Part shown: one piece after another, positions 4,696 through 64,000 of the stretch
Layout: every line of letters begins with the position of its first letter
Position numbering within the stretch: the first letter of the stretch is position 1
NCBI RefSeq assembly: GCF_022763245.1
Contig: NZ_JALEGV010000028.1
Location: 62,001-126,000, forward strand
Direction of reading: 5' to 3'
DNA length: 64,000 bases
Source of the DNA: Oricola sp.
GTDB taxonomy: Bacteria > Pseudomonadota > Alphaproteobacteria > Rhizobiales > Rhizobiaceae
The notes under the pieces: generated by a model
Databases searched by the model: none
What the model was told of the DNA's origin: nothing
Seen by the model: the letters and a program-made list of their open reading frames with translations, nothing else
Made by a program: the position numbers and the translations under genes

Positions 4696-4702
4696 CCGCC
4701 GT

Positions 4703-5256: not shown

Positions 5257-5424
5257 TTACTTGATTTTGGTTTCCTTGAACTCGACGTGCTTCTTGGCGA
5301 TCGGGTCGTACTTCGTCTTCACCATCTTCTCGGTGAAGGTGCGGCTGTTCTTCTTGGTGACGTAGAAGAAGCCGGTGTCCGCGGTGGACAGCAATTTGAT
5401 CTTGATCGTGGTGGCCTTTGCCAT
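5257..5424 (-). CDS. rpmG: 50S ribosomal protein L33
   Basis: A 55-residue basic protein beginning [13 protein letters not shown] and containing [10 protein letters not shown], the standard L33 sequence of alphaproteobacteria. It lacks the CxxC pairs found in zinc-binding L33 forms, so it is the Cys-free type. Component of the large ribosomal subunit. AGGTTAAG lies before the ATG. It has its own terminator directly downstream. The 115 bases separating it from the Nudix gene upstream suggest its own promoter. Confidence 0.97.
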
Positions 5425-5539
5425 GGTCTTAACCTGTCATTTCAAGAGAGCGAGCCAAAGCGGGTCACGGGCAGACCGCCGGCGAATGTGCGCGGAACCT
5501 ACGGATTGCGCGCGGAAAGTCAAGCTGTCATTGCGGGAG

Positions 5540-49256: not shown

Positions 49257-49633
49257 CAGTCGTCTCCTCCCGGAAGCGCGGTGACCCTGCGCGGACACAG
49301 CGCCTGAAGTTCCTCGGCGCTCATGTCGGCGTTGTGGGCGCCGATGTGCCAGAGATTCTGGCCGACGGTCGCGGCGACCTTGAGCATGGATTGCAGGTGC
49401 CCGCCCGCCTTGAGGAGGCCGGTCCAGTCACGCGCCAGGACCATGGCGACCTCTTCCTCCGACAGTCCGTAACCGGCCATGTAGCCGGTCTCGTCGGCGA
49501 GGAACGTCGTGCGGTTGTCCGGATTGCGCAGGCTCAGGCCGAACTTGGTCAGTTTGTAACCGCGCGTCGCGGCCGGCCCGTCATAGATATAGGTGCCCGG
49601 CGGGTCGAGATTGAACGGGACGGAATTGCTCAT
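49256..49633 (-). CDS. ligA: Extradiol dioxygenase alpha subunit (LigA-like)
   Basis: A 125-residue helical small subunit that closes over the LigB active site. Conserved parts: FNLDPPGTYIYDGPAATRGYKLTKFGLSLR in pieces, FLADETGYMAGYGLSEEE, and LLKAGGHLQSMLKVA. The start ATG 49633 overlaps the hydrolase stop (ATGA). Encoded as a separate protein as in LigAB, not fused as in gallate dioxygenase DesB. Confidence 0.9.
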   Translation of the reverse strand: MSNSVPFNLDPPGTYIYDGPAATRGYKLTKFGLSLRNPDNRTTFLADETGYMAGYGLSEEEVAMVLARDWTGLLKAGGHLQSMLKVAATVGQNLWHIGAHNADMSAEELQALCPRRVTALPGGDD

Positions 49634-50421
49634 GACACTTCCTCCTGTGTTGCGAGAAATTCGGCCAGCACCGCATTGAAGCGGTCCGGCAGTTCGAGAT
49701 TCAACATGTGGCCGGCCTCTTCGAAGGTGACCAGGGACGCATTGCGGATCCTGCTCGCGAGCACTGTAGCGATGTCGCGATAGCCCTTGGCATCGCGGCC
49801 GCCGCTCATGACGAGCGTTCGTGCGGTCACGGCGTCGGGGTCCTGTCCGGGCGGGCTGACGAAACGCGGGTCGGCGTTTTCCCAGTGCCAGCCGCTGTAA
49901 TCCGCGACCATCTCGCGGACGGCGGCTGCGGCTTCCGGATAATCGCCGAGCGAGGCAAACAGCGGATGGTCGAGCCAGAACGCCTTTGTCGCCTCGGCGC
50001 CGTGCGCGTCGGCATGGGCCTTCGCCGCGTCCGGCGGGCGTTCCTCCTGCCATTCGAAGCCGGGCAGTCCGGACGAGGCCAGAGCGAGTTTCGCCGCCGC
50101 ATCCGGATAGCGCGCGGCGTAGGACATGGCGATATTCGCCCCCAGCGACAGGCCGACGAGGACCGGCGATTCGAGGCCGAGCGTTTCGATCATCGCCTGC
50201 AGGTCGAGCACGTGGTCGTAAGGCTCGGCCGGCGGCGCGGAACGGCCGAAACCGCGCAGGTCGTAGGCGATGCAGCGACTGGTGTCGCGAAAGCGCTCCA
50301 TCTGCGGCGCCCACTGGCGGTGATCGAAGGAAAAGCCGTGCAGGAAGACGAGGGCAGGGCCGCTGCCTTCGTCGCGTGTCCAGAGGCGGCCGGAGCCGAT
50401 ATCGACCATGCCCTCGCTCAT
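49630..50421 (-). CDS. Alpha/beta hydrolase in the ligAB operon
   Basis: A 263-residue alpha/beta hydrolase. Oxyanion motif HGFSFDHRQW, nucleophile Ser in GLSLGANIAMS (about 91), and a C-terminal His in EEAGHMLNLELP. The fold is like meta-cleavage product or 3-oxoadipate enol-lactone hydrolases, so it may act on a lactone or ring-opened product formed after LigAB. Substrate not proven. ATGA overlaps with genes on both sides. Confidence 0.88.
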   Translation of the reverse strand: MSEGMVDIGSGRLWTRDEGSGPALVFLHGFSFDHRQWAPQMERFRDTSRCIAYDLRGFGRSAPPAEPYDHVLDLQAMIETLGLESPVLVGLSLGANIAMSYAARYPDAAAKLALASSGLPGFEWQEERPPDAAKAHADAHGAEATKAFWLDHPLFASLGDYPEAAAAVREMVADYSGWHWENADPRFVSPPGQDPDAVTARTLVMSGGRDAKGYRDIATVLASRIRNASLVTFEEAGHMLNLELPDRFNAVLAEFLATQEEVS

Positions 50422-50873
50422 GATTTCGCCGGCCCTTCCGGGCCAGAAATCTCGGCGCTGCGGAAAACCGGGTCGATCCTGCGTTCGGCGAAGCGCCAGC
50501 CCTGCGGTCCGCGTGCATAGACGTCGGTGATGTCGGCGACGAGGAACGGCTCGGCCGGCATGATCGGCAGGGCGCCGTCGCCGGCGAAGGTGAGCCAGAC
50601 CGAATAGCCCGTGGCGCGGTCCGGACCGTCGAAGGTGATCGAGAGCCCCGAATAGAGATGCCGCGACACCCGGCCGCGCGCGGCGCGGGCGGTGAAGAAT
50701 TCGGTCATTTCCGCCCGCCCGTTGAGCGCGCGAGGGCCGTTCGCGTAGCGGACGTCGTCGGTGAAGAGCGCGACGAAGCCCGTGACGTCGCCCTGGTCGA
50801 GCAACCGTCCGAAATCGTCATTGAGCGCCATGATCGCCAGCCGGTCGGCGATGCGCGTGTCGTCTGCGCTCAT
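50418..50873 (-). CDS. SnoaL/NTF2-like protein
   Basis: A 151-residue protein of the NTF2-like fold: FGRLLDQGDVTGFVALFTDDVRYANGPRALNGRAEMTEFF in pieces and GWRFAERRIDPVFR. Members are small isomerases, cyclases, or relatives of ring-hydroxylating dioxygenase beta subunits. Its place directly after an FAH gene and before the hydrolase and ligAB suggests an isomerase in the same pathway. Function unproven. Confidence 0.82.
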   Translation of the reverse strand: MSADDTRIADRLAIMALNDDFGRLLDQGDVTGFVALFTDDVRYANGPRALNGRAEMTEFFTARAARGRVSRHLYSGLSITFDGPDRATGYSVWLTFAGDGALPIMPAEPFLVADITDVYARGPQGWRFAERRIDPVFRSAEISGPEGPAKS

Positions 50874-50906
50874 GTCATTCGCCCTCCCTTGGTCTCCCGG
50901 ACGCGA

Positions 50907-51893
50907 TCACGACTGGCCGATATGGACGATCGGGTTTTCCAGCCGTCCGATGCCTTCGACGTCGATCCCGATCGTACCGGACATTTCGCCGATGAGGATG
51001 TTCTTGTGACCCCTCGGGAACCTGCCCTTACCTTTTCCAGTCGTCCCGAAGGAGATGACGTCGCCGGGTTCCAGCGTGAAATACCGGCTGGCTTCCGCCA
51101 CGCAGGCCTGGATCGAGAAACGGTAGTTGGACGTGTGGTCCTCGGCGAAGACCTCGCCGTCGATATCGGCGACAACCTTCAGGTCGTTCGGGTCGGCGAT
51201 CTCGTCGCGGGTGATCATCCACGGTCCCATCGGGCCGAAGGTGTCCGTGCCCTTGGAGCGGGTGTGGTAGACGTAATAGGCGTCGCGGTCGTCGTCGCCG
51301 TGGAGATGACGCCACTTGTAGAATTCGGGCCGCGCCATGTCCGGATCGTAGGTGATGGCGATGCTGTCCTTGCCGAATTTCAGGCCGTGGGACGTCACGT
51401 CGTTCATGATCGAATAGCCGAAGATGCAGGAGAGGGCGTCTTCCTCGCTGATGTTCTTCGTGCGCTTGCCGATGATCGCGCAGACTTCCGGCTCCGGGAT
51501 CACAGCGCCCCAGGCGGGGTCCACGCAGATCGGGTGCCCCTGGCCGGTCAGCGCCGAGGGGGGCTTCAGGAAGAAGTTCGGCACGCCCGGATCGATATGC
51601 GCCTTCCTGACCAGTTCCTTGTTGTTGAAGGCGACGCCGATGATCTTCGACGGCCGTGTCACCGGCGGGGCCCAATCGATCGGTCCGCCGACCGGCGCGA
51701 CCTTGTCGGCATGGGCGGCGACCGTTTCCCGCCAGCCGGGCTCGTCGCCTGCGGTCTCGACAAGGTCGAGGATGGTCGCCGGCGCTGCGACGCCCGCCAT
51801 CTCGCAGACCTCGGACAGGAGGCGCGGAGCGCCGTCTTCGCCCGCGACGACCGGGCAGGATTTGCCATTCAGGTTGATGGTGCCGAATTTCAT
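50907..51893 (-). CDS. Fumarylacetoacetate hydrolase family enzyme
   Basis: A 328-residue FAH-fold enzyme, longer than the one at 35265-36122 and not close to it. Key parts: IGVAFNNKELVRKAHIDPG, PEVCAIIGKRTKNISEEDALSCIFGYSIMNDVTSH in pieces, KGTDTFGPMGPWMITRDEI and PGDVISFGTTGKGKGRFPRGHKN. Probably hydrolyses a ring-opened dioxo-acid. First gene of the ligAB operon, 33 bases before SnoaL. Transcribed from the operator region shared with the IclR gene. Confidence 0.85.
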   Translation of the reverse strand: MKFGTINLNGKSCPVVAGEDGAPRLLSEVCEMAGVAAPATILDLVETAGDEPGWRETVAAHADKVAPVGGPIDWAPPVTRPSKIIGVAFNNKELVRKAHIDPGVPNFFLKPPSALTGQGHPICVDPAWGAVIPEPEVCAIIGKRTKNISEEDALSCIFGYSIMNDVTSHGLKFGKDSIAITYDPDMARPEFYKWRHLHGDDDRDAYYVYHTRSKGTDTFGPMGPWMITRDEIADPNDLKVVADIDGEVFAEDHTSNYRFSIQACVAEASRYFTLEPGDVISFGTTGKGKGRFPRGHKNILIGEMSGTIGIDVEGIGRLENPIVHIGQS

Positions 51894-52001
51894 CCGTGAG
51901 CCTCCCGAAACTCCAACCGCAGCCCATCAGGCGCGATCGCACCACAGGGCATCCGGCAAGAGACCTACATCAATTCGCGCCCGATCGTTGATGTTCACGG
52001 C

Positions 52002-52024
52002 GAAATTTCACAAAGTGAAATTTC
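52002..52024. promoter_or_regulatory. Perfect 23-base palindrome, probable IclR operator
   Basis: GAAATTTCAC (52002-52011) and GTGAAATTTC (52015-52024) match perfectly around AAA. It lies 108 bases before the FAH start and 21 bases before the IclR start, so one bound regulator can control both. GAAAxxTTTC-type dyads are known for IclR regulators such as KdgR. Confidence 0.8.
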
Positions 52025-52045
52025 TGCCATCGCCCGAGGAACCGG

Positions 52046-52855
52046 ATGACCGACGCGCCCGACTCGTTGCTGCCTGACGACATCGCCACCGAGCCCGAGG
52101 CGGAAACGGGCTCCTATGCTCCGATCAAGTCGGTCGAGAAGACCCTGCTCGTTCTGGAAGAGCTGAACCGCCATCCGGTGCGGCGCGTATCCGACATCCA
52201 TGCGGCGACGGGCATTCCGATGCCCACCCTGGTCCGCATTCTCGAGACGCTGGCTGGCGCGGGATACGTCCAGAAGATTTCGCGCTGGGCGGGCTACTGC
52301 CTGACGCACAAGGTGCTGTCGCTGTCGTCCGGTTTTCACGGGCTGCCCGAGGTGTTCAGGCCGGCGCGCGAAGCCGCGGACAGTCTGACGCGCACGCTGA
52401 AATGGCCGTCGGCCATATGCAGCTTCGACGTCGACGCGATGGTGGTCCGCTATTCCACCATTCCGGCCAGCCCGCTTTCGCACAAGCATTCCACCATCAA
52501 TCGGCGTCTCGATCTGCTGACCCGGGCGCACGGGCGCGCCTGGCTCGCCTTTTGCGAAGAGGCGGAGCGGATGCGGGTCTGGGACATGCTCGCCCGGTCA
52601 GGGCGTCATGCGGGACAGGTCGATGAGCTGCGCGGCGCGATGGAGCCGATCCTGGACGACGTCCGGCGCAAGGGATTTGCGGCGCGCGACCGGCAGACCG
52701 AGCCCGAGACGCACACGCTGGCAGCGCCCATCATCCTCGGCGGCGTGCTGATCGGCACTTTGGGCATGACCTACTTTTCCCGCTCGGTGCGCAGCTCGGC
52801 GGACATCGCCGAGCACTTGCTGTCGGCCAGCCGGCAACTGTCGAATTCGACCTAG
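52046..52855 (+). CDS. IclR-family transcriptional regulator
   Basis: A 269-residue IclR regulator: winged HTH (VEKTLLVLEELNRHPVRRVSDIHAATGIPMPTLVRILETLAGAGYVQ in pieces, about 30-80) and an effector-binding GAF-like domain. Segments WPSAICSFDVDAMVVRYST, HKHSTINRRLDLLTRAHGRAWLAF and AAPIILGGVLIGTLGMTYF are of the MhpR/PcaU type, whose ligands are aromatic acids. Probably controls the ligAB operon. Convergent with the LysR gene (4-base overlap). Confidence 0.9.
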   Translation: MTDAPDSLLPDDIATEPEAETGSYAPIKSVEKTLLVLEELNRHPVRRVSDIHAATGIPMPTLVRILETLAGAGYVQKISRWAGYCLTHKVLSLSSGFHGLPEVFRPAREAADSLTRTLKWPSAICSFDVDAMVVRYSTIPASPLSHKHSTINRRLDLLTRAHGRAWLAFCEEAERMRVWDMLARSGRHAGQVDELRGAMEPILDDVRRKGFAARDRQTEPETHTLAAPIILGGVLIGTLGMTYFSRSVRSSADIAEHLLSASRQLSNST

Positions 52856-53766
52856 GCTGCGGTCGTGCTTGTCGCGCTTGCGAGATAGTCCATGAGCGCG
52901 CGATGGCGCGCGGTGACCGGCGCGCCGGCCGGGCGCGCAAGGCCGAGGGACGTCAGCGGAATCCTGTCGTCGATTTCCAGGACGACGAGGGGCTTGCCGT
53001 CATAGGTCATCGGCGACAGCGGGCGCTGGAAGAGGACGCCGTAGCCCAGTCCCCGCGCCACGAGGCAGCGCACGAGCTCGAAATTCGTCGTGGTGTGGCC
53101 GATGAGCGGCTTCAGCTTGAGCGCGTTGAAGATGTGCTCGGTATTGGGCCGCGACGGATCCACGTCGAGCAGGATCATCGGCTCCGACACCAGTTCGCCG
53201 AGATGGACGCTTTTGCGGCCGGCGAGCGGGTGGTCGGGTGCGACCATCACATAGGGCCGCACCTCCGTCAGCGGGTCGAAAGCGAGCTGAGGCGGCACGT
53301 CGGTGTCGTAGAGAAGCGCGGCGTCGATCCGGCCCTGCAGCAGCATTTCCGCAAGCTCGGGCGCCGCGGCTTCGGTCAGGTCGAGCTCGAGTTCCGGATG
53401 CCTGCGCTGGAACACTTCCATGATCCCCGGCAGCAGGAAGGGCGTCAGCGTCGAGAAGCAGCCGATAGCGAAGCGGCCGCTCAGGCTGGACGACGCCTGC
53501 CAGGCGTTCTCGGCGAGCGATTCGGCGCCCTGCAGCACCAGCCTCGCATGGGACAGGAGGCGCGCGCCCGCCGGCGTCAGCATGACGCCCTTGCCCTTGC
53601 GGCGCACGAAGAGTTGCAGCCGCAGATGCTGTTCCAGTTCATCGACCGCCAGCGCCAGCGCCGACGCGCTGACCAGGCACCGTTGCGCGGCCGCGGCAAG
53701 CGAGCCTTCGCTGGCGATCGCGTTGAAATATTCCAGCTGCCTGATCGTGAAGGGGATCGAAGCCAT
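52852..53766 (-). CDS. LysR-family transcriptional regulator
   Basis: A 304-residue LTTR with HTH in FTIRQLEYFNAIASEGSLAAAAQRCLVSASALALAVDELEQHL (pieces, about 6-48) and an effector domain. Divergent from the LigM-like gene, so it is the likely regulator of that gene. A perfect palindrome at 53796-53807 lies between them. Confidence 0.9.
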   Translation of the reverse strand: MASIPFTIRQLEYFNAIASEGSLAAAAQRCLVSASALALAVDELEQHLRLQLFVRRKGKGVMLTPAGARLLSHARLVLQGAESLAENAWQASSSLSGRFAIGCFSTLTPFLLPGIMEVFQRRHPELELDLTEAAAPELAEMLLQGRIDAALLYDTDVPPQLAFDPLTEVRPYVMVAPDHPLAGRKSVHLGELVSEPMILLDVDPSRPNTEHIFNALKLKPLIGHTTTNFELVRCLVARGLGYGVLFQRPLSPMTYDGKPLVVLEIDDRIPLTSLGLARPAGAPVTARHRALMDYLASATSTTAA

Positions 53767-53795
53767 CCACAGAAATCCTTGGGTGTTTCATCTTA

Positions 53796-53807
53796 AAAAC
53801 ATGTTTT
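53796..53807. promoter_or_regulatory. Palindrome between the LysR and LigM-like genes
   Basis: AAAACATGTTTT, a perfect 12-base palindrome 29 bases before the LysR start and 75 before the LigM-like start. Likely a binding site for the LysR regulator or part of the promoter. Confidence 0.5.
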
Positions 53808-53881
53808 ACAAACTTGATGCGGGGGTCAAGACTGCCGCCCGACCAATCGGTCTCAGGCCAATGCAAGGGGAGGAACCAGTC

Positions 53882-55255
53882 TTGGCAAGAAATCTCGAAG
53901 AAGCGATCAAGGAAGCCGGCAGCCCGGTCAAACTGTTGTGGGAGTCGACGACGCCGCCGTCGGTGGTGCCGCGCGTCGTGCAGGAATTCACCAACTGGCG
54001 CGACGAACAGCTCGCCTGGCGGCGCACGGCCGTTCTCTACGACCAGTGCCACCACATGGCCGACCTCAACATCAAGGGGCCGGACGCGCTGAAGCTGATC
54101 AGCGACCTGGCTGTCAATTCGGTCGAGAAATTCCCGGTCGACATGGCCAAGCAGTTCGTCGCGGTGAACCATGACGGCTACGTCATCGGCGACAACATCC
54201 TGTTCCATCTCGAGGAAGACGAGTTCCAGGCGGTCGGCATTCCGCCGTCCATCAACTGGATGCACTACCATGCGGTGACCGGTGGCTATGACGTGCGCAT
54301 CTGGCGTGACGACAACTCCGCGGTGCGCAAGGGCGATCCGGTCAACTACCGCTACCAGATCCAGGGTCCGGGCGCGATGGACGTCATCCGCGACGCGACC
54401 GGCGAGGAGCCGCCGAAGCTCAAGTTCTTCTACATGACCCGCTTCACGATCGCCGGCAAAACCGTTCGCGCCCTGCGCCACGGCATGGCGGGCGAGCCCG
54501 GTTTCGAGATCTGGGGCCCGTGGGAGGACAAGGACGCCGTTCACGCCGCGATCCTGGAAGCCGGCAAGAAGCATGGCCTGACCCAGGTCGGCGGCCGGGC
54601 GTATCACACCAATGCGCTCGAATCCGGTTGGCTGCCGCGTCCGCTGCCCGCGATCTACACCGACGAGCGGCTCGCCGACTATCGCCGCTGGCTCGACGAG
54701 AACGCCTACGAGACGATCTCGCCGCTCGGTGGCAGCTTCCATTCGGAGAACATCGAGGACTACTACTTCACGCCTTACGACCTCGATTACGGCCGCATCG
54801 TCGCCTTCGACCACGACTTCATCGGCCGCGAGGCGCTGGAGAAAATGGTGGCCGACGGCAAGACCGGCGAGCGCAAGAAGGTGACGTTCGTCTGGAACGG
54901 CGACGACACGGCGGCGGCCTACGGCTCCATGTTCCACCAGGGTCCGGGCGCAAAGTTCATCAACCTGCCGATGTCGCTCTACGACACGTTCCATGCCGAT
55001 CGCATCGAGATCGACGGGAAGGTCGTGGGCCTGTCGACCTGGTGCGGCTATTCGGCCAACGAGCGGGCGATGCTCTCGCTCGGCGTGATCGACGCCGCCT
55101 TCGCGGAGCCCGGCACCGAGGTGACCCTGGTCTGGGGCGAAGACACGCCGTCTGCCAAGGTGCAGGTCGAAGACCACGTCCAGGTCAAGATCCGCGCCAC
55201 CGTGCAGGCCGCGCCGCTGGTCGAAAAGGCGAGAACCAGCTACCGCGCCAACTGA
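53882..55255 (+). CDS. LigM/DesA-type tetrahydrofolate-dependent aryl O-demethylase
   Basis: A 457-residue GcvT-fold protein like LigM of Sphingobium, which moves the methyl of vanillate or 3-O-methylgallate to tetrahydrofolate. Similar segments: NWRDEQLAWRRTAVLYDQCHHM, DALKLISDLAVNS, HDGYVIGDNILFHLEEDEF, MHYHAVTGGYDV, RALRHGMAGEPGFEIWGP, GGRAYHTNALESGWLPRPLPAIY (each only partly quoted), and VTFVWNGDD. The Tyr in the RAY(H/P)xNxLESGW segment is retained. TTG 53882 has GGGGAGG 8 bases before it; an in-frame ATG at 53861 is possible. Substrate probably a methoxylated aromatic acid. Confidence 0.88.
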   Translation: MARNLEEAIKEAGSPVKLLWESTTPPSVVPRVVQEFTNWRDEQLAWRRTAVLYDQCHHMADLNIKGPDALKLISDLAVNSVEKFPVDMAKQFVAVNHDGYVIGDNILFHLEEDEFQAVGIPPSINWMHYHAVTGGYDVRIWRDDNSAVRKGDPVNYRYQIQGPGAMDVIRDATGEEPPKLKFFYMTRFTIAGKTVRALRHGMAGEPGFEIWGPWEDKDAVHAAILEAGKKHGLTQVGGRAYHTNALESGWLPRPLPAIYTDERLADYRRWLDENAYETISPLGGSFHSENIEDYYFTPYDLDYGRIVAFDHDFIGREALEKMVADGKTGERKKVTFVWNGDDTAAAYGSMFHQGPGAKFINLPMSLYDTFHADRIEIDGKVVGLSTWCGYSANERAMLSLGVIDAAFAEPGTEVTLVWGEDTPSAKVQVEDHVQVKIRATVQAAPLVEKARTSYRAN

Positions 55256-55401: not shown

Positions 55402-56178
55402 TCAGCCGAGATCGGCGCCCATTCGGGTTGAGAGGGTGGAGGCGATCCGGCGAACGTTGGCGATGATCTTCTCGCGCTCCGCTTCGCTGATGTCCTCGGC
55501 CAACAGGCTGACGGCGACCCCCGCGATCGGCGTGTTGCGCGAATCGAGGACCGACGCGCCGAAGCATACGATTCCCTCCGCAACCTGTTGATTGTCCACC
55601 GAATAGTGGTTCTTGCGCGTCTGCTCCAGCTCGCCGAGCAGATGCTCCATCGACTGGACGCTGTGCGGCGTGCGCGGCGTCGGCAGGCCGTCGCCGTAGA
55701 GCCGTTTGACCTCGAAATCGCTCATGTGGCTGAGGAAGGACTTTCCGGTGGCCGTGAAGGCGGCCGGCAGGCGCATCCCGGCGCGGAAATCGATCAGCGA
55801 ATGGCTGACGTCGGAGTTGCGCGCGGCGATGTAGACGACCTCGTTGCCCTCCAGCACGGACAGGGTGATCGTGGCACCCGGCATCTCCGTTTCCTTGTCC
55901 CAGATCGACGCGAATTCCGTCGCCACGTCAGACTGTTGGGTAAAGGCGTTCGACCAGCGCATGAGGTGCGGGCCGAGCTGGTAGGTCTGGTCGGGTCGCC
56001 GGATCAGGAGGTTCAGTTCCACCAGTGTGCGGCACAGCGTGTGAACGCTGCTCTTGGCGATGTCGAGCTCGCGCGCGAGCTCCGACAGGCTTGGGTGACT
56101 GCGCCTGCGCGCGACGACGTCGAGGATGCGGGTCGCCCTCTCAACGGCTGGAACTAGCTTGATTTCTTCTTGCGTCAT
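55402..56178 (-). CDS. IclR-family transcriptional regulator
   Basis: A 258-residue IclR regulator. HTH in ILDVVARRRSHPSLSELARELDIAKSSVHTLCRTLVELNLL (pieces, about 18-60), then the effector domain with IAARNSDVSHSLIDFRAGMRLPAAFTATGKSFLSHM (pieces) and the C-terminal GVAVSLLAEDISEAEREKII. Its divergent partner operon encodes an AHL-lactonase-like enzyme, as with BlcR (AttJ) and BlcC (AttM) in Agrobacterium, so repression lifted by a lactone or acid is a reasonable guess. Confidence 0.9.
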   Translation of the reverse strand: MTQEEIKLVPAVERATRILDVVARRRSHPSLSELARELDIAKSSVHTLCRTLVELNLLIRRPDQTYQLGPHLMRWSNAFTQQSDVATEFASIWDKETEMPGATITLSVLEGNEVVYIAARNSDVSHSLIDFRAGMRLPAAFTATGKSFLSHMSDFEVKRLYGDGLPTPRTPHSVQSMEHLLGELEQTRKNHYSVDNQQVAEGIVCFGASVLDSRNTPIAGVAVSLLAEDISEAEREKIIANVRRIASTLSTRMGADLG

Positions 56179-56243: not shown

Positions 56244-56280
56244 TGTTCTGTCTATTGAATTGTGTTCAATATACTGAACA
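56244..56280. promoter_or_regulatory. Nested inverted repeats, probable IclR operator
   Basis: Inner dyad TATTGAA-TTGTG-TTCAATA (56253-56271) within an outer pair TGTTC (56244-56248) and GAACA (56276-56280). It lies between the IclR start and the SCP2-like start. A TATACT (56270-56275) overlaps the right arm and could be a -10 for the rightward operon, in which case a bound repressor would block it. Confidence 0.6.
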
Positions 56281-56370: not shown

Positions 56371-56760
56371 ATGGTAATGAGCGTGAGGGACTGGGCCGTC
56401 AGGTTCAGCGAAGCCTCCGACCGCGATCCGACGATCGGCGCGATGGCTCGATATTTCACCTGTACCTATCTCTGGGACATGGGCGCCGCCAAGGTCATCG
56501 TGCGGATGGTCGATGGCAAGGTTCACGAGGTCAACATCGATCCGGCCCCGATGGATTCCTACGATTTCGCGCTGCGGGCGAGCCCCGAGACATGGCGCGA
56601 ATTCGCCCGGCCGATCCCCGATCCGATGTATCACGGCATTTGGTCCGCCAGTTTCCGGCGTGACTTGAAGCTCGAGGGCAACATCCTCGTGCTGATGCAG
56701 AATCTGCGCAACTTCACCGTCCAGTTCGAGCTGCTTCGCAAGGTCGGCGTGCCGGTCTGA
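56371..56760 (+). CDS. SCP2-like sterol-carrier-domain protein
   Basis: A 129-residue protein with the SCP2-type fold by sequence pattern: alternating strands in FTCTYLWDMGAAKVIVRMVDGKVHEVNI, then the helix FALRASPETWREFARPIPDPMYHGIW and GNILVLMQNLRNFTVQFELLRK. Such small domains bind hydrophobic ligands in the cytoplasm. It starts the rightward operon of hydrolase, MBL and ABC importer genes. GGGAGGAGG precedes ATG 56371. It may carry or shield a hydrophobic substrate. Confidence 0.7.
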   Translation: MVMSVRDWAVRFSEASDRDPTIGAMARYFTCTYLWDMGAAKVIVRMVDGKVHEVNIDPAPMDSYDFALRASPETWREFARPIPDPMYHGIWSASFRRDLKLEGNILVLMQNLRNFTVQFELLRKVGVPV

Positions 56761-56819
56761 TCCGGCGATTGCCCGCGCGCGCCGCCGCGCGCGCCCAACG
56801 AAACGTCACGGAGTTCCCA

Positions 56820-57668
56820 ATGGCAAAGCATTCGCCGGTAATCGGGCGCTATGTCACCATCGAAGTGGATGGTTACGAGTACAAGGTCTTCTACTTGCGC
56901 AACGGCGAGGGCATTCCGCTCGTCTGCCAGCACACCGCCGGATGTCACAACCACCAGTGGCGCGACCTGCTGGAGGATCCGGACATCACGCAGGACTACG
57001 ACGTGATCGCCTACGATCTCGCGCGCCACGGCAAGTCCGATCCGCCGCTCAACAAGGAGTGGTGGAAAGAGGAATACCGCCTGACGGCAGAGCACTACAT
57101 GAACTTCATCGTGGCGTTCTGCGACGCGCTCGAGCTGGACGATCCGATCTTCATGGGCTCCTCCTTCGGCGGCAATGTCGCGCTGCAGCTGGCGCTGCAC
57201 TATCCGGACCGCTTCCGGGCCGTCATTCCGGTCGAGGCGGCAGAGCACGCGCCCGGCTTCTTCCTCGACTGGTGGCGTCATCCCCATGCCAACGCCGCGC
57301 AGGTCTGCGCCTCCGGCGTCTGGGACCTGATGGCGCCGCAGAGCCCGGACAAGGACCGCTGGCTGACCTGGCATTACTACACCCAGGGATCGGAGGTCTT
57401 CAAAGGCGACCTCTATTTCTACTCCGTCGATCACGACCTGCGCGGGAAGCTGGGCTCCATCGACACCGGCCGCTGCCCGGTGATCATGATGACGGGCACC
57501 TATGACTACCTGACGCCGCCGGAGGCGACCGAGGCCACCGCCCGGCAGATCCCGGGCGGCATCTATATCGAGATGGAGGACATCGGCCACTTCCCGATGT
57601 CGGAGAACTATCCGCTCTTCGCCGTCTACCTGAAGGAAGCCTTGCGCCTCGTCGAGGAGCGGGCCTGA
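56820..57668 (+). CDS. Alpha/beta hydrolase in the ABC operon
   Basis: A 282-residue alpha/beta hydrolase. Oxyanion-region HTAGCHNHQWRDL (about 40-52), nucleophile Ser in FMGSSFGGNVALQ (about 113), acid in TGTYDYLTPPEA and His in MEDIGHFPMSEN. Substrate unknown; esters or lactones are plausible. ATG 56820 begins MAKHSPVIGRYV. It is in the same operon as the SCP2-like protein and the MBL lactonase-like enzyme. Confidence 0.85.
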   Translation: MAKHSPVIGRYVTIEVDGYEYKVFYLRNGEGIPLVCQHTAGCHNHQWRDLLEDPDITQDYDVIAYDLARHGKSDPPLNKEWWKEEYRLTAEHYMNFIVAFCDALELDDPIFMGSSFGGNVALQLALHYPDRFRAVIPVEAAEHAPGFFLDWWRHPHANAAQVCASGVWDLMAPQSPDKDRWLTWHYYTQGSEVFKGDLYFYSVDHDLRGKLGSIDTGRCPVIMMTGTYDYLTPPEATEATARQIPGGIYIEMEDIGHFPMSENYPLFAVYLKEALRLVEERA

Positions 57669-57719
57669 CGTCGCCCGCCTGGGCCATTCTCCACACCACG
57701 CACCGCCGGGGAAACATTC

Positions 57720-58658
57720 ATGAAGATCATCGAATTTGACGACAACGGGCGACGGGTCGAGAGTGATTCCTCTTCGTTGCGTTCCGATGTCGGACCGAGC
57801 AGCCTCGCGCCGCGTCCGCAGTTCAAGTCCGCGGTGGCGGAGACGCCGCGCCGCAAGCGTGGCAACTCGTCGGGCATCGAACTGCACATGTTCCAGACGG
57901 GCACGCTCAGGACGAAGCTCAAATACATCAAGATGAACCAGGGCGAGACGGATTTTGAGATCCCCGTGCCCTGGTTCCTGATCAAGCATCCGGCCGGCAA
58001 TGTCGTCATCGACGGCGGCAACGCCGTGGAGACGGCGATCGACAAGCGCGGCCATTGGGGCGCGGCGGTCGACGCCTACGACCCGATCATGGACGTGTCG
58101 GAGAACTGCGTCGATCAGCTGAAATCCGTCGGCGTCGATCCGCATTCGGTGCGTTACGTGCTGCAGTCGCACCTGCATCTCGACCACACCGGCGCGATCG
58201 GCCATTTCCCCAAGGCGCAGATCTTCTGCCAGCGGGTGGAATACGAATACGCCTTCAAGCCGCACTGGTTCTCGAACGCTGCCTATATCCGCGCGGATTT
58301 CGACCGCCCGGGCCTGAACTGGAAGTTCCTCGGCGGCGAATTCACCGACAATTACGACCTGTTCGGCGACGGCACGATCCGGATGATCTTCACGCCCGGC
58401 CACGCGCCCGGCCACCAGTCCTTCCTGATCACCCTGCCGCGCACCGGGCCGGTCCTTCTGACGATCGACGCCGCCTACACGCTCGACCATTGGGAGAACA
58501 AGGCCCTGCCGGGGCTGGTGGTGTCGTCCGCCGACGCCGCGGATTCGGTGGCCAAGCTGCGCCGCATCGCCAGCGACACGAATGCCATGGTGGTGACCGG
58601 ACACGATCCCGACACCTGGCGGTCGTTCCTCAAGGCGCCGAACGATTTCTACGATTGA
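57720..58658 (+). CDS. Metallohydrolase of the AHL-lactonase family
   Basis: A 312-residue MBL-fold enzyme close to N-acyl-homoserine-lactone lactonases (AiiA, AttM). Metal ligands are present: LQSHLHLDHTGAIGHF (HxHxDH, about 148-153), TPGHAPGHQSF, the bridging Asp with the adjacent Tyr in LTIDAAYTLDHWENKALPG, and VVTGHDPDTW. The AiiA-type Tyr is kept. The N-terminal 55 residues (KIIEFDDNGRRVESD then Ser-rich and Arg-rich) are an extra tail. It probably opens a lactone ring; AHLs are only one option. Confidence 0.88.
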   Translation: MKIIEFDDNGRRVESDSSSLRSDVGPSSLAPRPQFKSAVAETPRRKRGNSSGIELHMFQTGTLRTKLKYIKMNQGETDFEIPVPWFLIKHPAGNVVIDGGNAVETAIDKRGHWGAAVDAYDPIMDVSENCVDQLKSVGVDPHSVRYVLQSHLHLDHTGAIGHFPKAQIFCQRVEYEYAFKPHWFSNAAYIRADFDRPGLNWKFLGGEFTDNYDLFGDGTIRMIFTPGHAPGHQSFLITLPRTGPVLLTIDAAYTLDHWENKALPGLVVSSADAADSVAKLRRIASDTNAMVVTGHDPDTWRSFLKAPNDFYD

Positions 58659-58709
58659 GGCCGTCGCCCGCGCGGCGCGGCGCATCTTGAAGGGAGGAGG
58701 AACGGACAG

Positions 58710-58772
58710 GTGAGGGCGAGGCCCTACGACATCCCCCGGGACATGCGGTTCGCAGGCGGGAAAATTCACTGA
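58710..58772 (+). CDS. Possible 20-residue mini-ORF before the sugar-type binding protein gene
   Basis: GTG at 58710 is preceded 9 bases upstream by a strong GGGAGGAGG and the frame stops at 58770-58772, giving MRARPYDIPRDMRFAGGKIH. The stop is 15 bases before the ATG of the ABC binding protein, which has its own GGAGGAG. It may be a leader peptide, a remnant of a longer gene, or chance. No homologue is recognised. Confidence 0.25.
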   Translation: MRARPYDIPRDMRFAGGKIH

Positions 58773-58787
58773 AACGGAGGAGAAGCA

Positions 58788-59957
58788 ATGAATCTTCTTA
58801 AGCAAATGACGTTGGCTGCCGGTGCGCTCGCCGTCAGTCTCATCGCCGCCCAGGCCGAAGGCGTGGACGAGATCAACCCGGACGTCGCCGAGCGGCTCTA
58901 CAACCCGGAAATGCTCGATCCGATGCAGCCCGTCGGCGCGAGCCCGCTGCGCGAGTTCAAGGCGAAGAACCCGCCGCCGTGGAAGATCGGCTACGCGTCG
59001 TCCTATGCCGGCAACACCTGGCGCGCCAACGCCATGGAAGCCCTGCAGAAGGACATCATCCCCAAGTGGAAGGAAATGGGTCTGATCAGCGAGGTCGTCA
59101 TCACGCAGTCGAACCTCAACGATTCCACCCAGATCCAGCAGATGCGCCAGCTCGTCGACCAGGGCGTCGACGCGATCTTCGTGTGCTGCTCCAACCCGAC
59201 CGCGCTGAACCAGACGGTCCAGTACGCCTACGACAAGGGCGTTCCGACGTTCTCGTTCACGGGCTACCTGACCGCGCCGACCTCGGTGAACTCGTCGGTC
59301 AACTACCAGGTCGCCGGTTTCGAGATCGGCAAGCGCATGGCCGAGGAACTGGGCGGCGAGGGCAACGTGCTCGTCGTCGAGGGCATTCCCGGCACTTCCG
59401 GTTCCGACAGCCAGGACCGTGGCGTGAAGGCCGGTCTCGCGACCGCGCCGGGCATCAAGATCGTCGGCTCGATCGCCGGCATGTGGACCGACCAGGTCGC
59501 CCAGGGCGAAGTGCAGAAATGGCTCGCCACCCATCCGGGCAAGCTTGACGGCATCGTCGTCCAGTCGGCCGCCGAAATGGGTGTTCTGCGCGCGCTCAAG
59601 CAGTCCGGCCGCCAGGGCGTCAAGGTCGCCGTCGGCGGCGAGCTCGGCGCGCTGTGCACGTGGCGCAAGGATCCGAGCCTGATCGACGTCGCCGTCCAGA
59701 CCTGGCCGCCGGCGGACGACATCGGCCTGATTTGGGACATCATGATGCGCACCCTGCAGGGCCAGGGCCCGAAGGTTCAGTCCGTGCTCGTCGATCCGGT
59801 GGTCATCACGCATGAAGACGTGATGAAGCTCCTGCCGGAAGATTGCGACGAGAACGCGCAGAACTGGTTCAACGTCGGCAAGGACAGCTGGGGCTCCAAG
59901 GACTATCTCGACCAGTTCTTCGTGAACCCGGCCGACCCGACCCAGTACAAGCCCTGA
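58788..59957 (+). CDS. ABC importer substrate-binding protein, ribose/sugar (PBP type I) family
   Basis: A 389-residue periplasmic protein with a signal peptide (MTLAAGALAVSLIAAQAEG). The mature part has the type I binding fold: WKIGYASSYAGNTWRANAMEAL, IFVCCSNPTALNQTVQYAYDKGVPTFSFTGYL in pieces and VAGFEIGKRMAEELGGEGNVLVVEGIPGTSGS in pieces. It is like the RbsB/XylF group. A feature is VCCSN in the hinge. Ligand unknown. GGAGGAG precedes the ATG. Confidence 0.9.
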   Translation: MNLLKQMTLAAGALAVSLIAAQAEGVDEINPDVAERLYNPEMLDPMQPVGASPLREFKAKNPPPWKIGYASSYAGNTWRANAMEALQKDIIPKWKEMGLISEVVITQSNLNDSTQIQQMRQLVDQGVDAIFVCCSNPTALNQTVQYAYDKGVPTFSFTGYLTAPTSVNSSVNYQVAGFEIGKRMAEELGGEGNVLVVEGIPGTSGSDSQDRGVKAGLATAPGIKIVGSIAGMWTDQVAQGEVQKWLATHPGKLDGIVVQSAAEMGVLRALKQSGRQGVKVAVGGELGALCTWRKDPSLIDVAVQTWPPADDIGLIWDIMMRTLQGQGPKVQSVLVDPVVITHEDVMKLLPEDCDENAQNWFNVGKDSWGSKDYLDQFFVNPADPTQYKP

Positions 59958-60030
59958 TCGCAGCTTGAAACACGGACCGTCGCCGGCGCGGCGGCGGTCC
60001 ATCCGAACCCCGTCAGGATTGTTTCGTTCG

Positions 60031-61899
60031 ATGTCGACCCGACCCGCAGAAAAATCACAGAGCGCCCATGGTCGCGAGACCATCATCGTGCGCAACGTGA
60101 AGAAGTATTTCGGGCCGACCCGGGCGCTGGACGGGGTGAACTTTTCCGCCCGCGCCGGAGAAATCCACGCCGTCGTCGGCGGCAATGGCTGCGGCAAGAG
60201 CACCATGGCCAAGGTGGTGTCGGGCATTCTGCCGATCGACAGCGGATCGGTATCGATCCTCGGCGAGACGCCGTCGACGCCTGCGGAGAGCAAGGCGACC
60301 GGCATCTCCACCGTCTACCAGGAAGTCCTCGTTGCCGACGAGAGCACCGTCGTCGACAACATCTTCATGGGCTCCGACGCCCTGTTTTCCAAGACGCTGT
60401 CGCATGACAAGAAGGTCGCGCGCGCAGCGGAACTCATGCACGATCTCGCCGGCGAGCCGGTCGATCCCTTCGCCATCGTCGGCACACTGCCGCTCGGGCT
60501 GAAGCAGTGGATCACCATCGCCCGCGCGCTGGTCAACGATCCGAAGATCCTGATCCTCGACGAGAGCTCGGCCGCGCTCGATTTCGACAGCACCGAGCGT
60601 CTCTTCGCCAAGATGCGCAGCCTGCGCGACCGGGGTGCCACGATCCTGATCGTCACCCACCGGATCGCCGAACTCATCCGCATCTCCGACCGGGCCACCG
60701 TGCTGCGCGACGGACGCGACGTTGGCGTGCTGGAGAAGCAGGAGATCACCGAAAAGAACCTGCTGGCGCTGATGACCGGCGACGAGGACGCGGGCAACGC
60801 CCATGCGCACGAAGCGCCGCAGCCGCGCGACGACGCGCTGGCCATGGTCGCCTCCGCGATCTCGGTCTGGAGCGACGACGACACCTTCGATTTCGATTTG
60901 CGCCGCGGCGAGATCGTCGGCATTGCGGGCCTCGACGGCCAGGGGCAGGACGCCTTCGTGCGCGCCATGGCGGGCATCGAGCCGGTGCGCCGGGGCAGCG
61001 TCCAGGTTTCCGACCGGCATGGCGAATTCCATCCCGTGCGCAACCTGTCCGAGGCCGTCGCGGGCAAGATCGCCTATGTCTCCGGCGACCGGAAGCGCGA
61101 GGGCATCTTCGCCTCGCTCTCGATCTTCGAGAACATGGTCATGCCGCTCTACCGCGACAAGAAACGCGGCGGCATCCTGGGCATCATCGACTGGGACACG
61201 CTCGGCACCATCTTCAAGCGCGAGGCCGACAACCTGCTGATCAAGTTCGGCATGCGCGACGACCGCATCACCTCGCTGTCCGGCGGCAACCAGCAGAAGG
61301 TTCTCATCGGCCGCGGCTTCGCCATGCGGCCGGACGTCATCGTGCTCAACGATCCCGCGCGCGGCATCGATGTCGGCGCCAAGACGGAACTCTACAAGCA
61401 CCTGCGGCGCTTCGCCGAAGAGGGCAAGTCGGTCATCTACATGTCCTCCGAACTCGAGGAGTTCATGGGTTTCGCGACCCGGGTGATCGTGTTTCGAAAC
61501 GGCAGGCCGTTCGACGCCTTCGACGGCCGGGCCCTCGATCCGAAGAAGGTGCTGGAGGCGATGTTCGGTCAGACGGACGGTCGCGGGCTGGACGCGCCCT
61601 GGGGGCTGAAGCCGGCATGGGATGACGAAACGGTTCCTCATGGCACCGGTGCCGCGCCCGCATCGTCGGCGGCAAGCAGCGACGGCGTGCGGGTGAAGGT
61701 CGAGGTTCCCGCCAGCATTCGCAGAGAGATGGAACAGCGCCGCAACGCGCCCGCCGAACATCCGGTGTCTGCCGCGCCTGCGCGCCAGCCGGACGACAGG
61801 GTCCGCGCCGCCCGTCCGCACAAGCCCGCGCCGCCGAAATCCATCCGCATCGTCGAATTCGACGCCGACAGCGGCGAAGCCAGGAATATCGGCCGATGA
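60031..61899 (+). CDS. ABC importer double-ATPase, ribose type, with extended C-terminus
   Basis: A 622-residue protein, longer than the usual 500-residue RbsA. NBD1 has Walker A GGNGCGKST (about 50-58), an atypical signature LPLGLKQWI (instead of LSGGQxQ) and Walker B ILILDESSAALD. NBD2 has the degenerate Walker A GLDGQGQDAF, normal for the family, and signature LSGGNQQKVLI. The last 80 residues, after GQTDGRGLD, are Pro/Ala/Arg-rich, unlike standard ABC ATPases, ending KSIRIVEFDADSGEARN. ATG 60031 is chosen; its stop overlaps the next start (ATGA). Confidence 0.9.
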   Translation: MSTRPAEKSQSAHGRETIIVRNVKKYFGPTRALDGVNFSARAGEIHAVVGGNGCGKSTMAKVVSGILPIDSGSVSILGETPSTPAESKATGISTVYQEVLVADESTVVDNIFMGSDALFSKTLSHDKKVARAAELMHDLAGEPVDPFAIVGTLPLGLKQWITIARALVNDPKILILDESSAALDFDSTERLFAKMRSLRDRGATILIVTHRIAELIRISDRATVLRDGRDVGVLEKQEITEKNLLALMTGDEDAGNAHAHEAPQPRDDALAMVASAISVWSDDDTFDFDLRRGEIVGIAGLDGQGQDAFVRAMAGIEPVRRGSVQVSDRHGEFHPVRNLSEAVAGKIAYVSGDRKREGIFASLSIFENMVMPLYRDKKRGGILGIIDWDTLGTIFKREADNLLIKFGMRDDRITSLSGGNQQKVLIGRGFAMRPDVIVLNDPARGIDVGAKTELYKHLRRFAEEGKSVIYMSSELEEFMGFATRVIVFRNGRPFDAFDGRALDPKKVLEAMFGQTDGRGLDAPWGLKPAWDDETVPHGTGAAPASSAASSDGVRVKVEVPASIRREMEQRRNAPAEHPVSAAPARQPDDRVRAARPHKPAPPKSIRIVEFDADSGEARNIGR

Positions 61900-63314
61900 G
61901 CGACGTTGCCACCACAGAGCCGCGCGTTCAGGCCGAGCCGTCCCAGGGCGGTCGCGCCAATCCGTTCCTTCTGGTTCCGATCACGCTGTTCTTCCTGTTG
62001 CTCGGGTTGGCCGTGCTGCGTTCGCCGAGCCTGATGACGAGCTTCGGCATCGGCAGCGCGGTCATCGTCGCCACGCCGCTGATCCTCGCCACCTACGCGC
62101 TGATGGCTTCTGTGATTTCGGGACGCGGCACGGTGGACCTGTCGATCGGCCCGCTGATCGGCTTCGTCAACGTGACGCTGATCCAGCTCTATGGCGCGGG
62201 CGTCCTGCAGAACCCGATCTCCATCTTCCTCTATGCGATCGTCATCGGCGGGCTCTACCAGTTCATCTTCGCGCTGATCGTCATCTATGTGCGCGTGCAG
62301 CCGATCATCGTGTCGCTGTCCGGCTATCTCGCGCTTTCGGGCATAAATCTCGTCATCCTGCCGAGACCCGGAGGTGTCGCGCCGCAATTCATGGCCGACT
62401 GGGGCCTCGGCACGTCCATCTTCTCGCCGGTGTTCGTGATCCTCGTGCTGGCGACCATCGCCTGGCTGCTGTTCACGCGGACCGCCTTCTACACGCATCT
62501 GCGCCTGATGGGCTCCGACGAGCGCGCGGCCTATACGAGCGGCGTGCCGATCTATGTGGTGCGCATCGGCGCGCATGTGATCTCCGGCGGGTTCGCCGGC
62601 CTCGCGGCGATCGCGTTCACCGCGCTGATCTCGTCCGGCGATCCCTCCCAAGGCACGACCTACACGCTGATTGCCGTCACCGCGCTTGTGCTCGGCGGCG
62701 CGTCGCTGGCGGGAGGCCGCGCCAGCGTGTTCGGCTCGTTCCTGGGGGCGGTGAACCTCTATCTGATCACCTTCGTGCTCGCGACGTTCAATTTCGGCGC
62801 GGTCCAGAGCTTCGTGACCAATCTCGCCTATGGCTCGATCCTGGTCGCGTCCCTGCTGCTGACGCTGATCATCCCCTTCATCCAGCGCCACATCCACAAT
62901 TTCTCGCCGGTGCTCTACTTCGTCGTCCTGGGCGTGGTTGCGCTGGGCGTGATCCTGCACGCGACGAATGACTACGATCCCCGGGCGCGGTCGCAGCCGG
63001 TCGAGGAGGTGGTGGCTGTCGCGCCGCTCGAGCCGATCGCGCCGGAACGCCTCTATGTCGGCCCGCTGGAGGTGGCGCAGCCCACCGCGACGGACGCGGT
63101 GCTGCGCGCCGAGGCGGCGCCGCTGATCCTGTCGGCCCTGCTGCTCATCGTCATCGCGGTGTTCGTGCGCCTTGCCGTCAGCCAGTCCGACCGCAAGACG
63201 ATCGCCCCGGCGGTGGCCGTGGTCCTGGCGGCGCTGGTGCTGTTCGGCGCGTATCTGATGCGCGGTGACGGGTCGCCGGCGCCTGCGGCCGGACAGACGG
63301 AGGAAACCCGATGA
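61896..63314 (+). CDS. ABC importer permease 1, ribose type, with C-terminal extension
   Basis: A 472-residue membrane protein. The first 325 residues are a normal ribose-type permease (RGTVDLSIGPLIGFVNV, VQPIIVSLSGYLALSGINL, GGFAGLAAIAFTALISSG, TALVLGGASLAGGRASVFGSFLGA in pieces). An extra 145 residues follow: a helix (VLYFVVLGVVALGVILHA), a Pro/Glu-rich loop of about 55 residues, two more helices (LILSALLLIVIAVFVRLAV and AVAVVLAALVLFGAYLM) and a short tail. This extension is not usual in the family. Confidence 0.9.
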   Translation: MSDVATTEPRVQAEPSQGGRANPFLLVPITLFFLLLGLAVLRSPSLMTSFGIGSAVIVATPLILATYALMASVISGRGTVDLSIGPLIGFVNVTLIQLYGAGVLQNPISIFLYAIVIGGLYQFIFALIVIYVRVQPIIVSLSGYLALSGINLVILPRPGGVAPQFMADWGLGTSIFSPVFVILVLATIAWLLFTRTAFYTHLRLMGSDERAAYTSGVPIYVVRIGAHVISGGFAGLAAIAFTALISSGDPSQGTTYTLIAVTALVLGGASLAGGRASVFGSFLGAVNLYLITFVLATFNFGAVQSFVTNLAYGSILVASLLLTLIIPFIQRHIHNFSPVLYFVVLGVVALGVILHATNDYDPRARSQPVEEVVAVAPLEPIAPERLYVGPLEVAQPTATDAVLRAEAAPLILSALLLIVIAVFVRLAVSQSDRKTIAPAVAVVLAALVLFGAYLMRGDGSPAPAAGQTEETR

Positions 63315-64000
63315 GCGCGACCTCCACCCTGCCGAAGCTCGGCCTTCCGGCGACGATCATCGGCCTGATCGCGGGCATCATCCTGACGGCGATCGGCGTG
63401 GTGTTCGGTTTCCTGCAGGGGCTTTCCGTCCAGTTCATCATCCTGTCGGCGATCGCCACCCTCGCGGCCTTCGTGTGGGCATGGCGCTTCGTCATCGGCC
63501 AGTTCGTCTCCGACACTCCGCCGCCCGCGGAAGGCGAGATCAGCGAGGCGCGGCGCGTCTGGCTGAAGTTCCGCCCCGCGATCTACGGCCTGATCGTGAT
63601 CCTCGGGCTGTTCCTGATCCTGTCGCTGACGATCGAGGGCTTCTTCAACGTCTGGAACGTCGTTTCGCTGCTGATCATCCTGACGATCATCGTGCTCACA
63701 CGCACGCTTGGTCGGCATTTCCAGGAGAACCGTTCCGCCTTCATCGGCGTCATGGTGCTGTCCGGCCTGTTCTCGATCGGGTCGATGAACATCGACGGGT
63801 TCGCGTCGGCCAACAACATTAAGTCGATGCTCCTGTTCGCCTCCTTCCTCGGCATCGCCTCGGTCGGTCAGACGCTCGTGGCGCTTTTGGGCGGGCTCGA
63901 CCTGTCGATCCCCTTCATCATCGGCGCGGCCAATGTCGGCCTTCTCTACCTGATCGGGCTCGGCGTCCCGCCATGGCTTGCCGCGATCATCGTGCTGGTG
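63311..64000 (+). CDS. ABC importer permease 2, ribose type, cut by the window
   Basis: At least 230 residues are visible; the 3' end lies outside. The N-terminal 100 residues form an extra block with two helices (TIIGLIAGIILTAIGVVFGF and FIILSAIATLAAFVWAW) before the usual permease start (FNVWNVVSLL and GIASVGQTLVALLGGLDLSIPFIIGA). ATG 63311 overlaps the permease 1 stop (ATGA). It probably forms a heterodimer with permease 1. Confidence 0.88.
   Translation, partial: MSATSTLPKLGLPATIIGLIAGIILTAIGVVFGFLQGLSVQFIILSAIATLAAFVWAWRFVIGQFVSDTPPPAEGEISEARRVWLKFRPAIYGLIVILGLFLILSLTIEGFFNVWNVVSLLIILTIIVLTRTLGRHFQENRSAFIGVMVLSGLFSIGSMNIDGFASANNIKSMLLFASFLGIASVGQTLVALLGGLDLSIPFIIGAANVGLLYLIGLGVPPWLAAIIVLV

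Follow-up and report, generated by a model that had tools for sequence, protein, structure and literature searches.

A conserved rhizobial operon joining a lysine-less flotillin-associated rhodopsin to an ABC importer and BLC-type catabolic enzymes

The contig NZ_JALEGV010000028.1 of Oricola sp. (Rhizobiaceae; assembly GCF_022763245.1) carries an operon of 13 genes, all on the forward strand, in which a ribose-type (CUT2) ABC importer is joined to a flotillin-associated rhodopsin (FArhodopsin, FAR), a flotillin and enzymes related to those of the Agrobacterium BLC pathway. It starts at position 56371 of the window, the 64,000-nucleotide stretch analysed here (contig positions 62,001 to 126,000), and runs to window-equivalent position 72301, which is 8.3 kb beyond its end. 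The operon is a real, conserved unit beyond chance, as nine of 397 genomes of the order (Oricola included) share this gene order and named strains, metagenome-assembled genomes (MAGs) and plasmids have it too. It represents a variant of the FArhodopsin clusters that is non-marine, lacks the lysine and has a catabolic route that can be read from its genes. It is proposed, with a probability of roughly 0.55, that it encodes a membrane-anchored platform for the uptake and catabolism of a small ester or lactone compound, in which a peptide tag would provide docking and the FAR would act independently of light.

Gene content and distribution of the operon

The half of the operon that lies in the window comprises, in order, an SCP2-fold protein of 129 residues (56371-56760), an alpha/beta hydrolase (56820-57668; PF00561), an AttM-family lactonase of 312 residues with an N-terminal extension of 52 residues (57720-58658; NF045700), a CUT2-type periplasmic binding protein (58788-59957; PF13407), a double ABC ATPase with a tail of 107 residues (60031-61899; PF00005 in two stretches) and two permeases, the first at 61896-63314 (PF02653) and the second entering at 63311, crossing the window end at 64000 and running to window-equivalent 64684. 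These seven forward reading frames, with 4-base overlaps at the ATPase/permease 1/permease 2 joints, had been described in a sequence-only reading of the window together with a divergent IclR-family gene (55402-56178, reverse strand), and their starts, families and overlaps were borne out, the SCP2 assignment by a fold match. The second half lies outside the window and consists of six more closely spaced genes on the same strand and contig, namely (coordinates of L010) the FAR-type rhodopsin (1234-1935; PF01036, 70.5 bits), a flotillin (1993-3711; PF15975, 121 bits, plus Band_7), a small membrane protein of 141 residues (3767-4192), an SSS-type symporter (4189-6138; its SSF match is weak, 19.7 bits, under the Pfam cut-off of 22.8), an iron alcohol dehydrogenase (Fe-ADH; 6167-7324) and a succinate-semialdehyde dehydrogenase (SSADH; 7351-8802; TIGR01780, 711 bits, cut-off 646). 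Neighbouring genes of the operon are separated by 26-129 bp or overlap by 4 bases, and the gene that follows lies on the opposite strand.

The rhodopsin was used to search 397 genomes of the order and the surroundings of the matches were then read. Among the 28 positive genomes, nine (Oricola included) carry what is here called type A, with the order IclR, SCP2, hydrolase, AttM, binding protein, ATPase, two permeases, rhodopsin, flotillin, small protein, symporter, Fe-ADH and SSADH; four carry type B, one type C, one a fragment and 13 stand-alone rhodopsins. Fe-ADH is present in 9/9 of these type A genomes and SSADH in 8/9 (G148 is without it); the run of G172 is divided between two contigs, and G282 shows a tenth type A start on a contig that ends before the permeases. 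The window's genes hold together elsewhere, as the sequence-only reading implied. Among named bacteria type A occurs in Rhizobium terricola, Metarhizobium album, Roseovarius litoreus and Lichenifustis flavocetrariae; several MAGs have it as well, plasmids of Martelella, Hoeflea and Pararhizobium gei carry it, and the betaproteobacterial MAGs L091 and L094 hold related forms. The rhodopsin was not found in 20 other members of the Oricola family that were listed. This sporadic occurrence, together with the plasmid locations, suggests that the operon has spread by transfer. In these counts L086 (which lies in G255) and L095 (in G120) were each taken once, and L083 and L084 end at contig boundaries; a scan of genome contigs gave at least 585 hits, of which the best 80 were retained, so that further FAR loci may exist. 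One plasmid sequence, CP070278.1, filed as Dysgonomonadaceae bacterium zrk40, closely resembles NZ_CP066788.1 of Martelella lutilitoris (246192 vs 246197 bases, with equal match identities), which is probably a matter of labelling or contamination.

Type B clusters, one of the four being partial, contain the importer, SCP2, hydrolase, FAR, flotillin and symporter without lactonase, Fe-ADH or SSADH, and their SCP2 and hydrolase genes have diverged from those of type A. At L092:17402-19902 and L158:20941-24828 genes for a CoA-transferase, an MmgE/PrpD protein, a dehydratase-like protein and an HpcH/HpaI lyase follow type B clusters, which points to another route, dependent on CoA, for what is imported.

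The rhodopsin and its relation to FArhodopsin clusters

FArhodopsin clusters were published in 2023 from Pelagibacterales, HIMB59 and Pseudothioglobus and comprise a rhodopsin, a flotillin, a sterol carrier, an inner-membrane translocator, a Na symporter, hydrolases and an Fe-ADH (PMC10308929). FArhodopsins are common in marine bacteria; that report did not establish their function and knew lysine-less members from metagenomes. The Oricola operon agrees with this gene content in its SCP2, alpha/beta hydrolase, translocator, Fe-ADH and Na symporter (the last on a weak match), and its rhodopsin and flotillin genes are directly adjacent, with a gap of 57 bp. The top PDB relatives of the rhodopsin are the flotillin-associated rhodopsins 9r21 and 9r23 (E 1.9e-43), placed before the proteorhodopsins. 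In a tree of 57 rows, 39 FAR-cluster rows were split by a branch of 100/97 from 17 other rhodopsins and one outgroup, the surroundings having been examined for 12 of those 17; type A forms one branch (100/97), and types A and B with L090 and L091 group together at 100/100. The sequence-only reading, confined to the window, knew of no described system with this gene set; the rhodopsin-flotillin half beyond the window places the operon among the published FArhodopsin clusters (PMC10308929), and it is therefore not an unrelated new system.

Similar clusters were found in the small genomes G415 (which holds a Pelagibacteraceae contig), G673 and G750, with identities to the operon of 64% for SCP2, 78-80% for the hydrolase and 61-66% for an AttM-type lactonase, two of these lactonases reaching 427 and 399 bits with NF045700 (cut-off 390). 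In G673 and G750 the permeases lie directly before the FAR. Relative to the published clusters (PMC10308929), the operon occurs in rhizobia and their relatives, cultured ones included and several on plasmids, instead of in marine bacteria; BLC-type enzymes replace the amide and biotin-carboxylase genes; the retinal lysine is an arginine; and a second rhodopsin or Blh/Brp was not found. The word lactonase is absent from the main text of that paper. A literature search for work joining at least four of rhodopsin, flotillin, ABC transporter, sterol carrier and lactonase, which did not cover most subscription papers and preprints, returned none.

In the Oricola rhodopsin the Schiff-base lysine of helix G, which binds retinal, is replaced by arginine and the aspartate of helix C by glycine. 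Of the 26 type A rows left after removal of redundancy, 25 have arginine at the retinal site and one (L088) has leucine; the site holds glutamate in L090, glutamine in L091 and leucine in 7/7 type B rows. The lysine is present in L060, L074 and L093, in the 72 stand-alone loci aligned and in G693, G600, G770, G750 and G673. Loci L096-L154 of Pelagibacterales and SAR116, used as stand-alone controls, keep it in 59/59, and near them operon proteins gave only weak matches of 25-34% on either strand (the ATPase at two loci, Fe-ADH at one, SSADH at two). The retinal-forming enzyme Blh/Brp (PF15461), the only such enzyme searched for, was found in 0/14 FAR genomes and in 2/2 genomes with a stand-alone rhodopsin; 12 of the 14 are at least 90% complete, G204 being 74% and G144 61% complete. 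A single PF01036 match, with no second rhodopsin, was obtained in each of these 16 genomes; a search of the Oricola genome likewise gave one. As an observation apart, loci L061-L071, from genus g61 of the same order (genomes of 0.9-1.6 Mb), have a stand-alone rhodopsin with the retinal lysine, and the one genome checked, G054, has Blh/Brp.

These data bear on the hypothesis advanced for marine bacteria, whose FAR genomes reportedly also hold a proton-pumping rhodopsin that the FAR would support (PMC10308929). Two rhodopsin matches each in G415, G673 and G750 are in line with it. For the bacteria studied here a role as proton-pump helper is unlikely, given that the retinal lysine is mostly replaced, that Blh/Brp was not found and that each genome has one rhodopsin; with the two helix replacements in the Oricola protein, support of a light-driven proteorhodopsin becomes a very improbable explanation of the operon. 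It was rejected for these genomes, the marine ones lying outside this test.

A peptide tag shared by the lactonase and the importer ATPase

The lactonase begins with MKIIEFD (57720-57740), and the ATPase tail, which ends in KSIRIVEFDADSGEARNIGR, bears the related IRIVEFD (61843-61863). In the form [IM][KR]I[VI]EF[DG] this tag starts 26/26 type A lactonases examined and ends 30/34 ATPase tails examined outside type B. A scan with one pattern accounts for 24/24 type A lactonases and 28/32 delimited non-B tails, and the tagged lactonases of G172 and G282 and the tagged ATPases of G172 and G415 were added later; the ATPase of L091, whose tail was not delimited by the script, holds four matches. 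Within-tail shuffling expects 0.007 matching tails, and the other six-frame reading frames, about 1.0 million residues in all, gave 23 matches, 22 of them inside FAR-cluster proteins. Over the Oricola genome a strict DNA pattern matched the ATPase tail only (the reversed control matched nothing), and a looser one matched five places: the lactonase, the ATPase and three others, two judged non-coding and one internal to another ABC ATPase. Plasmid annotations place the lactonase start 55-56 codons downstream and so omit the tag; in 23/23 type A relatives the lactonase extension opens with an in-frame ATG and then K[IVL][IVL]EF. The seven tag codons, compared over all pairs of 24 sequences, show 219/44/735 differences at codon positions 1/2/3, as expected of a constrained protein.

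The tag is not confined to these two proteins. It also tails the CapB protein and another reading frame of G144, a PxpC-like (5-oxoprolinase-like) subunit of G415 and the ATPase of G750. Four unrelated protein families carry the motif, at opposite ends of the chain. In the type C cluster of G144 there are genes for the caprolactamase subunits CapA (1212 bits) and CapB (1073 bits; NCBIfam cut-offs 1000) where the Oricola operon has a lactonase, and its CapB continues about 93 residues past the family profile, the tag lying within this stretch. Behind the ATPase in G693, G600 and G770 there is a linker reading frame of 115-116 residues in which the tag is repeated five times, and a linker of 123 residues in L093 has four matches. 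CsoS2 and EPYC1 are familiar examples of multivalent linker proteins; the type C linkers resemble them in being short, disordered in appearance (by eye) and built on one motif repeated four or five times, and differ in the motif and in their setting in an importer operon. Type C and marine tails often finish in an extra element like IKVKYF. A second possible motif, [FY][TK]xxDxxxFxx[IL], was seen at the N-termini of marine AttM proteins (L218/L220) and of a PxpB-like protein (L219:10707-11969) and repeated in the G144 type C reading frame L060:1319-2068, whose end bears the main tag; as the pattern was built from these same sequences, its specificity is post hoc. The tag was not found in the six type B ATPases examined, and the one that was Pfam-scanned (L094:3253-5439) has a C-terminal phosphatidylethanolamine-binding-protein (PEBP) domain (PF01161) in place of the tagged tail. 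The parts of PMC10308929 consulted make no mention of the tag, and a literature search in which most subscription papers and preprints were not covered matched one unrelated paper.

A tag common to the importer motor and the lactonase suggests that the two are physically docked. That it serves instead as an intramolecular lid or a degradation signal is an unlikely but not negligible alternative: in a model of the SCP2 protein, hydrolase and tagged lactonase as one read-through chain the tag is predicted as a strand, its block reaching pLDDT 83 against 43-44 in the flanking ones, which intramolecular pairing would also produce. A lid or degradation signal accords poorly with one motif at opposite termini of unrelated families and repeated in linkers, and the BlcC of Agrobacterium, which in A. 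fabrum begins MTDIRLYML and is without the tag extension, is nonetheless active (PMC3907764).

As for the partner of the tag, the clusters that bear it and were fetched have SCP2 proteins 60-94% and hydrolases 78-94% identical to those of Oricola, compared with 27-29% and 45-51%, respectively, in the tagless type B; the importer and FAR diverge between types A and C about as much as between A and B, the flotillin being somewhat closer in C. Since identity of the SCP2/hydrolase pair follows tag presence, this pair is, by correlation, the best candidate and possibly the partner. The SCP2-like protein gave no Pfam or NCBIfam match at E 0.01; its AlphaFold model (pLDDT 90) matched SCP2 folds of the PDB in Foldseek (E 4.8e-5 to 7.2e-4, TM 0.48-0.66). 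B-like SCP2-hydrolase pairs were also noticed in seven genomes of the order (L270-L274, L276, L277), and in the stretches fetched there this binding protein, the permeases, FAR and the tag were not found, which suggests that the pair is a two-part enzyme.

The importer shares the families of binding protein (whose best PDB relatives are CUT2 sugar-binding proteins), fused double ATPase and permeases with CUT2 systems, and differs from them in extensions of the ATPase and both permeases. A relative without FAR (L278, in genome G281 of the same family) has the same kind of importer, its permease 2 being 58% identical, with shorter permeases, no ATPase tail, no tag and no rhodopsin match in its genome. 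Relative to it, residues 327-472 of permease 1, 1-136 of permease 2 and 516-622 of the ATPase are without counterpart; those of the permeases appear from their hydropathy to include membrane segments. FAR, flotillin and the partner of the tag may make contact at these additions.

Catabolic route and proposed function

Agrobacterium blcABC converts gamma-butyrolactone (GBL) through gamma-hydroxybutyrate (GHB) and succinate semialdehyde (SSA) to succinate (PMC3907764). The operon shares with blcABC/blcR (attKLM/attJ) a lactonase, an Fe-ADH, an SSADH and an IclR regulator, with identities to the A. fabrum proteins of 63% (BlcC), 53% (BlcB), 59% (BlcA) and 41% (BlcR), and the likeness to the BlcR/BlcC pair that had been drawn for the IclR and lactonase genes was apt. 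In contrast to the operon, blcABC is a three-gene unit without importer, rhodopsin, flotillin or symporter inside, and the order differs, the lactonase being third of 13 genes in the operon and the dehydrogenases last. The lactonase scores 422 bits with NF045700 (curated cut-off 390), and its translation holds HLHLDH, which fits the HxHxDH metal motif of AttM lactonases; a lactonase tree left those of FAR clusters and of BLC unseparated. The divergent promoter contains an 18-bp palindrome, TGTTCAATATACTGAACA (56263-56280), a putative IclR operator, and a similar TGTTC-n8-GAAC palindrome, counted by eye, recurs in 11 of the 19 type A promoters that were read (Oricola included).

A quorum-quenching operon that degrades N-acylhomoserine lactones (AHLs), and not a simple lactone nutrient, would fit the names that NCBIfam and plasmid annotation give to the lactonase (AttM/quorum-quenching) and the N-acylhomoserine lactonase label of its closest PDB chains. 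We consider it improbable: a dedicated importer and an SSADH suit a nutrient, and BlcC permits growth of Agrobacterium on GBL but not on OC8HSLs (PMC3907764). In L278 the hydrolase and importer adjoin an SSADH gene, near a beta-hydroxyacid dehydrogenase, which indicates a substrate that would end as succinate semialdehyde.

The claim that the operon imports and opens a lactone- or ester-containing compound stands as to the importer and the lactone- or ester-opening enzymes; an aryl or lignin link found no support. Aromatic ring-cleavage genes do lie upstream in the window (48414-55255), with a LigB-like class III dioxygenase, a LigA-like protein (by eye), an FAH-family hydrolase, a DesA/LigM-like O-demethylase and IclR and LysR regulators. 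The aryl link was rejected because the LigM/DesA-like neighbour (53780-55255) had no match in the upstream flanks, each of at least 3.8 kb, of nine type A clusters (L041, L043, L044, L046, L048, L051, L055, L155 and L156). This check covered the LigM/DesA-like, FAH-family, IclR and LysR proteins, the LigB-like gene not being searched for, and aromatic-gene matches near relatives were weak (FAH-family 26% by the L055 operon; LigM 26%, partial, downstream in L079). Just downstream of the operon, L010:11473-17816 looks by eye like a cellulose synthase cluster.

In the mechanism that we favour, the CUT2-type importer would bring in a small ester- or lactone-containing compound, the SCP2/hydrolase pair would split the ester, the AttM lactonase would open the gamma-lactone, and the resulting 4-hydroxyacid would be oxidised by Fe-ADH and SSADH through succinate semialdehyde to succinate, as in BlcABC. 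The lysine-less seven-helix FArhodopsin and the flotillin beside the importer would act, independently of light, in sensing a ligand or in organising the assembly. With one tag each, the lactonase and the ATPase tail would meet at a common partner, for which the SCP2/hydrolase pair is a possibility, and in this way the first cytosolic enzyme would be docked to the importer. A ring-opening enzyme tethered to an importer on a flotillin/FAR platform is, as judged from the genes, most likely.

The operon might also be an ordinary BLC-like catabolic unit with a generic sugar-type importer, in which rhodopsin, flotillin and tag are passengers without joint function; the likeness of lactonase, Fe-ADH and SSADH to BlcCBA and the existence of a related importer without FAR (L278) favour this. 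It is nevertheless an unlikely account, as in all type A, B and C clusters for which the DNA beyond permease 2 was fetched, and likewise in G673 and G750, FAR and flotillin come directly next, despite differing catabolic genes (G415 is excepted, its importer lying about 16 kb from FAR on the other strand), and as the tag is under protein-level constraint and occurs on different enzyme families.

Several observations weigh against the proposed platform. The SCP2-hydrolase-lactonase part is inverted in L087, L089 and L090 and lies after the symporter in L091. SSADH was not found directly after Fe-ADH in G148, L080, L081, L082, L085, Pararhizobium gei (L156) and Hoeflea sp. IMCC20628 (L157), both genes are missing in L079 and L083 and Fe-ADH in L087, so that the full GBL route is not encoded in every such cluster. 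Type B keeps FAR, flotillin and importer without tag or lactonase, and FAR does not, therefore, need the tag. Among the four untagged tails outside type B, three of type C have a degenerate motif only, the fourth being cut by a contig end, and the tag pattern was widened in the course of the analysis. Finally, the read-through co-fold was poor (pLDDT 57, pTM 0.47) and names no partner.

The platform may be extended, more tentatively, to FAR operons in general, which would be tethered transport metabolons: a retinal-free rhodopsin fold and a flotillin would serve as the platform of an ABC importer, to which an exchangeable tag would recruit a lactonase, a caprolactamase or a 5-oxoprolinase-like enzyme, in some lineages via a linker with many tags. 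What is new here is the shared tag peptide, which makes a sharp prediction, that of a docking peptide common to an importer motor and a ring-opening enzyme. If true, this prediction would amount to a principle of protein scaffolding for transporters, and the tag could be carried over as a tool that tethers enzymes to a membrane. Closely related operons with a readable catabolic route occur in named strains such as Martelella sp. AD-3, Hoeflea sp. IMCC20628, Pararhizobium gei, Rhizobium terricola and Roseovarius litoreus, and the general reading would give FArhodopsins a function free of light, nutrient uptake and channelling, in culturable bacteria.

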